Below are positions 8,301 to 10,875 of a stretch of 33,548 nt of DNA, piece by piece. The translations under genes and the position numbers were made by a program. A model generated the notes under the pieces. That model worked only from the letters and a program-made list of their open reading frames with translations. It was not told the DNA's origin and made no database searches. The number at the start of each line of letters is the position of its first letter. Position 1 is the first letter of the stretch. Source of the DNA: Candidatus Hebobacteria bacterium (GTDB taxonomy: Bacteria > Armatimonadota > Hebobacteria > Hebobacterales > Hebobacteraceae); assembly GCA_029821885.1 (NCBI GenBank), contig JALGXV010000006.1:1-33548 (forward strand), written 5' to 3'.

Positions 8301-8715
8301 CACATTGGGCAATGGTCGAGAAGTTGCAGCGCGGCATCTTCCGCCACTGCGCGCCGGTGGCGCGGGTGTTGGGCACGGGCTCGATGGGAGCTTGTTCGCC
8401 CGCCGCCTCCCGCAGCACGCGGAAGTGCCCCGCGGTGGCCATCCGGCAGAGGTTGGCATAGCCGACCCTGGAGGTGGCCAAGAGGGGGAGGTGGTGGCAG
8501 CCTTCGGTGGTCAGCTCGACTCCCAGGATGGGCTTTATGTCGGCCTCCTGCGCGGCCTGGTAGAAGCGCACCGCGCCGTAGGTCCCATCGTGATCGGTGA
8601 CCGCCACGGCCGGCATACCCAGCTCGGCCGCCCGCGCCACCAGCCGGTCCAGACGGCAGGTGCTGTCCAGAAACGAGAAGACGCTGTGCACGTGCAGATG
8701 AACGAACGAAGGCAT
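5383..8715 (-). CDS. dnaE2: DNA polymerase III alpha-type polymerase, error-prone (DnaE2/ImuC-like) class
   Basis: A 1110-residue C-family DNA polymerase. The PHP domain starts at residue 1 with HLHVHS and TDHD, so its metal ligands look intact. The catalytic palm has the PDIDIDF signature near residues 454-460 and the third aspartate in KMDMLGLRN near 608. The fingers, helix-hairpin-helix region and a C-terminal OB fold follow (RVRVAGIVIARQRPP, then FITLEDETGLIEVTVF). The overall length and the RQRPP/LEDETG end resemble DnaE2/ImuC error-prone enzymes, which copy past DNA damage, more than replicative DnaE1. No imuA or imuB is in the window. GGAG precedes ATG 8715. Residues about 309-326 are encoded by two palindromic repeats and look like an insertion. 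A palindrome in its promoter suggests damage-inducible control. Class assignment is moderately sure; polymerase identity is certain. Confidence 0.93.
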   Translation of the reverse strand: MPSFVHLHVHSVFSFLDSTCRLDRLVARAAELGMPAVAVTDHDGTYGAVRFYQAAQEADIKPILGVELTTEGCHHLPLLATSRVGYANLCRMATAGHFRVLREAAGEQAPIEPVPNTRATGAQWRKMPRCNFSTIAQCAEGVIALSGCRFGEVPAAVRRGDMDAARRAVRRYQDIFGPDRFFIELCREEPDEDERLHIARLADLAEEMDAPIVATANVHYLTPEEAAIQDVLVCIQTLTKRDEWHLIRRRGAERYLKSPREMMEEFASYPQAIANTVRIAEQCEVDLELGGLHFPHFRMRDYAPGIGTVSGASSRNIGKSRRQAPAQQRPGWWPKTDQEVEGKPAKRLLEWLCWEGAAQRYRVPAARLRSSPTSPISARLHHELHIIRKLGLCEYFLVVWDIVEEARERSIRCAGRGSAADSMVSYVLGITQVDPLAARLLFERFLNPERREMPDIDIDFDSRKRDEMIEYVAERYGPEHTGMVATVNTYNARSALREVGKALGMPEQLIDRISRSMPYIPAGRIREAIANLPELRGSGFDAAGLRELLDICEAIDGFPRHLSVHLGGVVISRDPITNFTPLEVSAKGVIVCQFDKDDIEALGLVKMDMLGLRNLAAIEEALHIIRETRGRAPDLNRIPLDDKKTYELMRSARTVGVFQLESPGMRGLLSGLQPTRFDDIIANISLFRPGPMQADMIGPFLARRHGKEPTVYLHPSVKPALEETYGVILYQEQVLEVATALAGFTLGQSDSLRRAMTHDRSAEEMAKIRDIFLDGCHKRGIEKAIAEEAFRGLSAFAAYGFCKAHAASFAIIAYETAYLKAHYPAEFLAGILSNQPMGFYPPEVIVNEAKHFGVEVRSVDINKSRDRYWVEEGAIRVGLAQVYGLSAAGLKALLTARENSGPFRSLRDFCARTGLARPMVESLIKAGAFDSIRPRRELLWQLNEMTATGARPRDQNYRLGGQLPLLADDPGGNEVIGLPPATERERAASELAMTGISVTRHPLSFARERLSKMGVLNRSQLDSLPDGRRVRVAGIVIARQRPPIKSGQTVVFITLEDETGLIEVTVFERIYKQWGKVIFSNSALIADGILQKRGRYGTVVLGRRFQGFMP
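7739..7757. repeat. Palindromic repeat unit inside the polymerase gene
   Basis: GCAGGAG (7739-7745) and CTCCTGC (7751-7757) are perfect inverted arms around a 5-base loop. It shares the GGAGCTTGC core with the neighbouring palindrome at 7768-7791, as in REP-like elements. Confidence 0.7.
7768..7791. repeat. 24-base perfect palindrome inside the polymerase gene
   Basis: Arms GTTTCGGGAGC (7768-7778) and GCTCCCGAAAC (7781-7791) pair perfectly around TT. It is read in frame in dnaE2 and, with the 7739-7757 unit, encodes a stretch rich in Ser, Arg and Gln between conserved polymerase blocks. Confidence 0.85.
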
Positions 8716-8735: not shown

Positions 8736-8764
8736 AGGGTAATGCAAACAGACGTTTGCGTCAA
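8736..8764 (-). promoter_or_regulatory. Promoter of the error-prone polymerase gene
   Basis: Minus strand shows TTGACG (8759-8764), a 17-base spacer and TACCCT (8736-8741). The ATG at 8715 is about 20 bases beyond the -10, giving a short leader that includes the GGAG ribosome site. The -10 is a weak match (3 of 6), as is common for regulated promoters. Confidence 0.5.
8744..8759. promoter_or_regulatory. Candidate operator palindrome (possible LexA/SOS box)
   Basis: GCAAAC-AGAC-GTTTGC is a perfect 6-4-6 palindrome that fills the spacer between the -35 and -10 of the polymerase promoter. The N4-spaced form resembles Gram-positive LexA boxes (CGAAC-N4-GTTCG) without matching them. The position would let a repressor block RNA polymerase. 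Assignment to LexA is inference from the target gene. Confidence 0.5.
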
Positions 8765-8845: not shown

Positions 8846-9529
8846 ATGCGATATCGCGAGATAATGGCGCTTCTCAAATCCCACTACAAGCCCGAGAACA
8901 TCGAGGGCATGGCCCGCTTTGGCATCATCTCGAAGAAGGCGTACGGCGCTCCGATGCCGGAGCTGCGGAAGCTTGCCCTGCAGATCGGCAAGGATCACGA
9001 TCTTGCTCAGCGGCTCTGGGCCTCCGAGGTACTCGACGCGAGGACGCTGGCGGCCCTCATCGACGACCCGGAGCAGGTGACCGAAGAGCAGATGGAATCA
9101 TGGGTGGTCGACTTCGACAACTGGGCGATCTGTGACACCTGCTGCGGGAGCCTGTTCGACCGCACGAAGCTCGCCTACCGCAAGGCGGCCGAATGGAGCA
9201 AGCGGGAGGAGGAGTTCGTGAAGCGGGCCGCCTTCGCGCTCATGGCCTGGCTTGCGGTTCACGACAAGAATGACGATGACCGCCGCTTCACTCGCTTCTT
9301 CCCTCTCATCAAGCGCGAGTCGCGCGACGAGCGGAACTACGTGAGGAAAGCGGTCAACTGGGCGCTGCGACAGGTCGGGAAGCGGAATGCCGCCCTCAAC
9401 CGCAAGGCGATCGCGCTGGCCGAGGAGATGCGCGAGATCGACTCCAGAGCGGCGCGCTGGATCGCTGCCGACGCCTTGCGAGAGCTCCGAAGCCAGGCCG
9501 TCCAGAAGAGGCTGGCGCGTCGTCGGTAG
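8846..9529 (+). CDS. AlkD-like DNA alkylation repair protein (HEAT-repeat glycosylase family)
   Basis: A 227-residue protein starting MRYREIMALLKSHYKP. ATG 8846 is preceded by AGGGGAT. The frame extends upstream to a TTG at 8756, but that lies inside the operator of the divergent gene, so the shorter form is preferred. Sequence blocks YKPENIEGMARFGI, WASEVLDARTLAA and FDNWAICDTCCGSLF match the DNA alkylation repair (COG4912, AlkD) family. These proteins fold as an all-helical HEAT-like solenoid and excise N3- and N7-alkylated purines. The aspartate in NWAICD matches the conserved acidic residue of the family. It is divergent from the error-prone polymerase, which suggests a shared damage-response locus. 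The substrate is not provable from sequence. Confidence 0.88.
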   Translation: MRYREIMALLKSHYKPENIEGMARFGIISKKAYGAPMPELRKLALQIGKDHDLAQRLWASEVLDARTLAALIDDPEQVTEEQMESWVVDFDNWAICDTCCGSLFDRTKLAYRKAAEWSKREEEFVKRAAFALMAWLAVHDKNDDDRRFTRFFPLIKRESRDERNYVRKAVNWALRQVGKRNAALNRKAIALAEEMREIDSRAARWIAADALRELRSQAVQKRLARRR

Positions 9530-9602: not shown

Positions 9603-10493
9603 ATGCGAGCGGAGCCGACGAAGTCGGAAAAGCCAGTGAGCGAGAAGCCACGTTACCCCTCTCGGCGCAAGTTCCTGCGCCGAGCGCTCATCGCCGGCGG
9701 AGCCACAATCGGCGCGAGCGCCCTCTGGTCAGTCTTCGGCGAGCGGGCCTGGCTGCAGGCGCGGCGGGTGCCCGTATCAGTGCCCGATCTGCCAGCGTTC
9801 CTAGACGGCTTCACGATCGCTCACCTCAGTGACCTGCACCGCGGCCCCTTCATCTCCGAAGAGCATATCCGAGAGGCGGCGAGACTGGCGATGGCCTATA
9901 CGCCTGACATCGTGGTGCTGACGGGCGACCATGTCTCATTCAAGGCCAAGTATGCGAAGAGCGCGGTGTCGGCGCTGTCCTCTCTCAAGGCCGAGTACGG
10001 GGTCTATGCGGTCCTGGGGAATCACGAGTACTGGACGGACGAAGTCGGCCGCGTGACACAGACCCACCGCGACGCCGGGATCACGGTGCTGATCAACGAA
10101 GCTGTCGGGATCGCCGTGGGTGGGACCCCGTGGTGGCTGTGCGGGATCGACGATATGTGGGAGGGAAAGCCCGATCTCGAGCGCACACTCGCGGACGTGC
10201 CCGACGAGATCTTCAAGATACTGCTGTGTCACGAGCCGGACTATGCAGATGAGGCGGCGAAGCATGGGATTCCGCTTCAGCTCTCCGGCCACTCCCATGG
10301 GGGACAGGTGCGCCTCCCGGGCAAAGGCCCACTTGTGCTTCCCGCCCACGCGTGGAAGTATCCCTACGGGCTCCAGCGAGTCGGGTCATCGGGCACTCAG
10401 GTGTACACGACTTCAGGTGTCGGCGTAACGTTTCCGCCGATTCGGATCAACTGCCGTCCGGAAGTGGCTATCATCCGGCTGACGAGGGCCTAG
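9603..10493 (+). CDS. Tat-exported metallophosphoesterase (YkuE/YaeI-like)
   Basis: A 296-residue calcineurin-like phosphoesterase. The N-terminus has a twin-arginine export motif (SRRKFLRRA, about residues 20-28) and a hydrophobic stretch (LIAGGATIGASALWSVF), so it probably folds in the cytoplasm and is exported. The metal-binding blocks are in order: HLSDLH, GDHVS, GNHEYW, HEPDYAD and SGHSHGGQ. YkuE/YaeI relatives are exported or membrane-associated phosphoesterases, some active on lipid or UDP-sugar-lipid phosphates. A TAGTAT at 9573-9578 could serve as -10, but its -35 is poor. It follows the AlkD gene by 73 bases on the same strand. Confidence 0.9.
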   Translation: MRAEPTKSEKPVSEKPRYPSRRKFLRRALIAGGATIGASALWSVFGERAWLQARRVPVSVPDLPAFLDGFTIAHLSDLHRGPFISEEHIREAARLAMAYTPDIVVLTGDHVSFKAKYAKSAVSALSSLKAEYGVYAVLGNHEYWTDEVGRVTQTHRDAGITVLINEAVGIAVGGTPWWLCGIDDMWEGKPDLERTLADVPDEIFKILLCHEPDYADEAAKHGIPLQLSGHSHGGQVRLPGKGPLVLPAHAWKYPYGLQRVGSSGTQVYTTSGVGVTFPPIRINCRPEVAIIRLTRA

Positions 10494-10509: not shown

Positions 10510-10875
10510 ATGGCGGCCAGACAGAACGAAGACGAATCATTCATCGGCGAACCGATCGTACCCAAGCCGGGAACGTTCGACACCCCAAGGATGGCCACGG
10601 GCGAACCCGGGCTGCCGCGCGTTTTCAGGTGGCGGGGTGCCGAGTACACAATCGCAGGCGTGATGGAAACCTGGCGCAGTCAAGAGCCCGGCGTCGGGAT
10701 GGACAGGAAGCATCTCTACGTCCGCAAGCACTTCTACCGAGTGAAGACGACGTCGGGCGAGGTCATGACACTCTACTTCGACCGGAAGCCCCCCTCCGGC
10801 CGCGGGAAGAGCAGGCAGCGCTGGTATCTCTTCTCCATATCGACCGCCGGGCCTAGCCGACCTTCAGCAGGTTAG
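10510..10875 (+). CDS. Small conserved protein resembling DUF6504
   Basis: A 121-residue protein. The core (FRWRGAEYTIAGVMETWRSQ, then KHFYRVKTTSGEVMTLYFDR and RWYLFSI) resembles the DUF6504 family: a small beta-rich domain with conserved Trp and Tyr-Arg positions and no known reaction. No signal peptide or membrane segment. It begins 16 bases after the phosphoesterase stop, so the two are probably co-transcribed. Its last 23 bases overlap the end of the convergent PPC-domain gene. The family call is from memory of the pattern and is tentative; the gene itself is well supported by its fit with neighbours. Confidence 0.6.
   Translation: MAARQNEDESFIGEPIVPKPGTFDTPRMATGEPGLPRVFRWRGAEYTIAGVMETWRSQEPGVGMDRKHLYVRKHFYRVKTTSGEVMTLYFDRKPPSGRGKSRQRWYLFSISTAGPSRPSAG

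Follow-up and report, generated by a model that had tools for sequence, protein, structure and literature searches.

Which regulator, if any, acts at the perfect palindrome GCAAAC-AGAC-GTTTGC that lies ahead of an accessory DNA polymerase gene in the window, i.e. the whole 33,548-nt stretch of DNA analysed here, from a little-known sediment bacterium of the Hebobacteria? On the minus strand, a -35 box TTGACG (8764-8759) is followed by the spacer CAAACGTCTGTTTGCAT (8758-8742), a -10 box TACCCT (8741-8736) and the leader AGAGGCTGCTGGAGAGCGATATG, which carries a Shine-Dalgarno-like GGAG and runs up to the ATG of dnaE at 8715 (Table 1). The outer base of the palindrome is the final G of the -35 box and its remaining 15 bases lie within the 17-nt spacer. 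The initial annotation had described this layout correctly to the base, and the distance to the dnaE start codon, given there as about 30 bases, measures 28 nt. Comparison with the genome of origin and its relatives makes it very probable that the palindrome is the SOS/LexA operator of this Armatimonadota lineage. Perfect palindromes of the 6-N4-6 form number 17 in the window, so rarity was dropped as an argument and the case for an operator rests on recurrence.

Table 1 Features of the window and related sites elsewhere in the genome of origin (G000)
Feature	Position	Strand	Remarks
Accessory C-family polymerase gene (DnaE2-like), 1110 aa	5383-8715	-	PHP, polymerase, finger, HhH and OB domains
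dnaE promoter, sigma-70-type, TTGACG-17 nt-TACCCT	8736-8764	-	Palindrome in spacer
Predicted LexA operator GCAAACAGACGTTTGC	8744-8759	.	Recurs at dnaE orthologues and at lexA
alkD-like DNA alkylation repair gene (PF08713)	8846-9529	+	ATG at 8846; divergent from dnaE
YaeI-like phosphoesterase gene	9603-10493		Same direction as alkD
DUF6504 gene	10510-10875	+
Box ahead of lexA	C202:17854		About 60 nt ahead of lexA
Box ahead of yneA-like LysM gene	C202:17664		Gene divergent from lexA
Box ahead of TIGR03916 radical-SAM gene	C349:1769		-35 TTGACA overlaps right arm
CAAAC-N4-GTTTG within methyltransferase gene	C140		Rejected as operator
Dispersed repeat	C3:1681, C6:815, C8:7131, C40:3111 and 3235, C49:351, C215:1303
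Dispersed repeat, further sites	C344:1373, C402:6548, C247:3027, C21:2497

The exact word CAAACNNNNGTTTG (CAAAC-N4-GTTTG) occurs five times in the 3.79 Mb genome of origin, where about 1.2 matches are expected at its GC content; GCAAACNNNNGTTTGC, with up to one mismatch allowed, finds the same five places, and the reversed-pattern control gave 0 matches in this genome. Four of the five lie in promoter regions, namely those of lexA, the yneA-like gene, dnaE and a repair-linked radical-SAM gene, and at the observed density the chance of a match in a given 150-nt promoter is 0.02%. Across nine genomes, 31 exact matches stand against 4 for the reversed control. Two checks that the initial annotation had named, for a similar palindrome upstream of lexA and for its conservation upstream of orthologous polymerase genes, both came out in favour of an operator: the lexA promoter carries the box in each of the seven family genomes, this one among them, in which lexA was found, and dnaE-orthologue promoters carry it in all four that could be read (G000-G003), a count that leaves out G006 because its contig starts inside the gene. 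In these four promoters the arms are kept around the minus-strand cores GTCT, ATAT, GCCT and GGAT. The 17-nt spacing is likewise kept in G001, G002 and G003; the -35 and -10 boxes are kept in G001 and G002 and weaker in G003 (TTGATG/TAGGAT). Beyond the family, NNAAC-N4-GTTTG boxes stand at lexA in most other Armatimonadota classes examined.

Several matches were set aside. The fifth exact match lies within a methyltransferase gene, and such matches, found in four genomes, are coincidental, since the protein motif encoded there is conserved, which is why they recur in relatives; the word alone is thus not proof of an operator. One-mismatch matches like CACACAGYTGTTTG, which are scattered over many contigs, belong to a dispersed repeat family, and the match before secA in G005, together with other coding-region matches, has an unconvincing promoter context. 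The repeat in the genome of origin contains CATAACGGGTGTTTCGGCGCCACAAACAACTGTGTG, inflates the number of one-mismatch operator matches and is probably a MITE- or REP-like element. A further point against the operator reading is G004, which carries a copy of the dnaE promoter and operator nearly identical to that of G003 (L190, G004:C359:2154) with no dnaE in the 2.1 kb downstream; the gene may have been lost, or the promoter may serve another transcript.

The box closely resembles the Gram-positive LexA (DinR/Cheo) box GAAC-N4-GTTC, consensus CGAACRNRYGTTYC, with which it shares its length, the N4 spacing, the AAC-N4-GTT core within an inverted repeat and its location in the lexA and yneA promoters. 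It lacks the GAAC/GTTC half-sites: here position 4 of the half-site is A/T rather than G/C in both arms (CAAAC, GTTTG), a change that is nearly fixed in the Hebobacteria family, where the box often has an outer G/C as well (GTTTGC). The initial annotation had noted N4 spacing as in Gram-positive LexA boxes with different half-sites; the spacing stands, but the half-sites differ by one base only (CAAAC versus CGAAC). By sequence, the box is a lineage variant of the Gram-positive box, altered at one base per half-site, and not an unrelated motif. In Clostridium difficile, LexA boxes of the form GAAC-N4-GTTT, such as that of lexA (AGGAACAAATGTTTGC), are bound in vitro, and GTTTGC halves occur (PMC4234289). 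One arm of those boxes is identical to the GTTTGC half-site found here, but the other stays GAAC, whereas in the Hebobacteria family the GTTTG type is usual for both arms.

Could the palindrome then serve another repressor that shares the same damage genes? Inverted repeats of similar spacing are the targets of many HTH regulators, yet the presence of the box in the promoter of lexA itself in every lexA-bearing relative, as for an autoregulated repressor, and its match to the known Gram-positive LexA core make such a repressor very unlikely. That the palindrome arose by chance, or is a hairpin, and plays no part in regulation is scarcely credible: perfect palindromes of this form are common enough in the window to allow it, but they would not be expected to recur at four damage-linked promoters with a reversed control of zero, nor to conserve their arms while the core drifts, and the lexA and dnaE orthologue promoters speak strongly to the contrary.

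The divergent alkD gene noted in the initial annotation is real, and an operator lying between two genes, one of them the repair gene alkD, might mainly control the latter and its operon, to which the phosphoesterase and DUF6504 genes possibly belong. (A DUF6504 protein is also annotated beside dnaE2 in Shinella.) This we consider extremely improbable, as the site lies inside the promoter spacer of dnaE and as in G002 a DUF6504-like gene stands directly opposite dnaE in alkD's place, while dnaE, site and promoter stay. Since the alkD neighbour is not conserved, the operator is assigned to dnaE, although LexA may control dnaE and alkD jointly.

The reading as a LexA operator, with the GCAAAC half-site that the initial annotation had suggested for an uncharacterised lineage, is thus supported by recurrence at lexA itself and at several other damage genes (yneA-like, dnaE, imuB-like and TIGR03916). 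From the observed recurrence, position, arm conservation and gene identities, we infer LexA binding, repression, damage induction and a mutagenic outcome. A LexA dimer would sit on CAAAC-N4-GTTTG between -35 and -10 and keep RNA polymerase off the dnaE2-like gene, and it would repress its own gene via the same box. Upon DNA damage, RecA filaments would promote self-cleavage of LexA and free the operator. The same repressor would also control the yneA-like division inhibitor, an unlinked ImuB-like operon and the TIGR03916 radical-SAM gene.

The polymerase of the window is a second DnaE beside the replicative DnaE1 (C64). The OB domain (1030-1095 of 1110) is the last in the protein, which thus has no C-terminal tau-binding domain; absence of this domain is a criterion for DnaE2 (ImuC) (PMC3919608). 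In a tree, the organism's own DnaE1 groups with E. coli DnaE1 (100/100) and the window DnaE falls outside that group; with the root placed on the DnaE1 branch the tree fits monophyly of the window DnaE and known DnaE2, its deep forks being weak and its root arbitrary. The best annotated plasmid match is a Thermomicrobium error-prone polymerase (38.6%). The term error-prone-type, used in the initial annotation, agrees with the tree, the missing domain and this match, but the protein scores just under the NCBIfam error-prone cut-off (PRK05672, 884.8 versus 939). As the DnaE1 model is likewise not reached (PRK05673, 977 versus 1002), DnaE2-like is the safe name.

A likely partner is encoded elsewhere in the genome (C61), where a second Y-family gene lacks the catalytic acidic residues (HVRVHG for HVDMDA, GHE for IDE), as in ImuB. 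It follows a small gene with the promoter TTGACC-TGAGAACATTTGTTTGC-TATAAT, and in G000-G003 the 17-nt spacer of this operon promoter contains AGAAC-N4-GTTTGC. In G007 and G010, a Y-family gene adjoins an accessory dnaE, also with a box. LexA-regulated imuA-imuB-dnaE2 mutasome cassettes, including split forms, are known (PMC3919608 and references there). The genes described here are like them in the accessory DnaE without a C-terminal domain, the catalytically dead Y-family partner and the LexA-type boxes at both, but they are spread over two loci, with imuB behind a small DUF6504-like gene. They look like a split cassette, and dnaE2 and imuB would then form a split, LexA-controlled mutasome.

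The repressor itself (205 aa, C202) is well above the TIGR00498 cut-off (231 bits versus 111). It is built of the usual two LexA domains and, read by eye, keeps the Ala-Gly cleavage site and the Ser/Lys dyad; LexA of G001, from the same genus, is 95% identical. Its recognition helix is SSCTVQRHL, of the group type CTVQ[RK]HL. At lexA loci with a C[ST]VQ helix (21 loci, 27 boxes), T occupies half-site position 4 in 46 of the 54 halves and C in 5, whereas at those with other helices (78 loci, 114 boxes) the counts are 131 for C and 91 for T. The CTVQ[RK]HL helix thus goes with T at position 4 in these sequences and might itself account for this base, though the C[ST]VQ group is a single phylum and shared descent may explain the link. 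Perhaps, across much of Armatimonadota, the helix changed from SSSTVHxHL to SSCTVQ[RK]HL and with it the operator half-sites, from GTTCG to GTTTGC. The outcome would be an SOS regulon specific to the lineage, with the split dnaE2/imuB mutasome among its members and the TIGR03916 protein as an SOS effector, a wider scenario for which we find the case evenly balanced. A search of the open-licence literature found no described SOS system or LexA paper for Armatimonadota. The box would offer a ready motif to read SOS regulons across the phylum, and helix and operator together a small, testable case of how the two may change together.

The predicted regulon members come from selected stretches, a list that is not exhaustive and does not individually cover the uvrA, uvrB, recN and ruv promoters. 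Opposite lexA, the yneA-like LysM gene reaches E 9e-12 on the YneA model with a score of 44.8, below the cut-off of 60; its promoter has a box beyond the -10 and a second, weaker one in the spacer. This recalls the divergent lexA-yneA pair of Firmicutes (cf. sosA, PMC6851548), likewise a small membrane LysM protein opposite lexA with LexA-type boxes between, but here the pair is found in Armatimonadota and the model score is below cut-off. The TIGR03916 "putative DNA modification/repair radical SAM" gene (L278:1827-3077, G000:C349; 312 bits versus a cut-off of 343) has a LexA-type box overlapping the -35 in G000, G001 and G003. This promoter evidence suggests an SOS role for the uncharacterised family and would tie it to the DNA-damage response. 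The gene recA is usually a LexA target and was among those named in the initial annotation, but here the prediction fails: no LexA-type box was found at the recA promoters of the family (L279, L220-L225), where recA closely follows an upstream gene; recA may not be LexA-controlled in the Hebobacteria family. The dinB promoter has no box.

The predicted operators take one of three positions. Those of dnaE, imuB and a CBM9/DUF5916 gene lie in the spacer, those of lexA and TIGR03916 cover the -35, and that of the yneA-like gene is beyond the -10; judged by established LexA biology, all three positions are compatible with simple repression by occlusion of RNA polymerase. An architecture search for TTGAC-N(1-6)-RAAC-N4-GTT returned dnaE, imuB and the CBM9/DUF5916 gene in the organism's own genus, and little else that was convincing. 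The latter encodes a secreted protein (L299, G000:C316:5022; L298, G001:C75:50420), and its SOS-type promoter, TTGAC[AG]-TGAGAACAT[CT]TGTTTGC-TATCGT, is almost identical to that of imuB.
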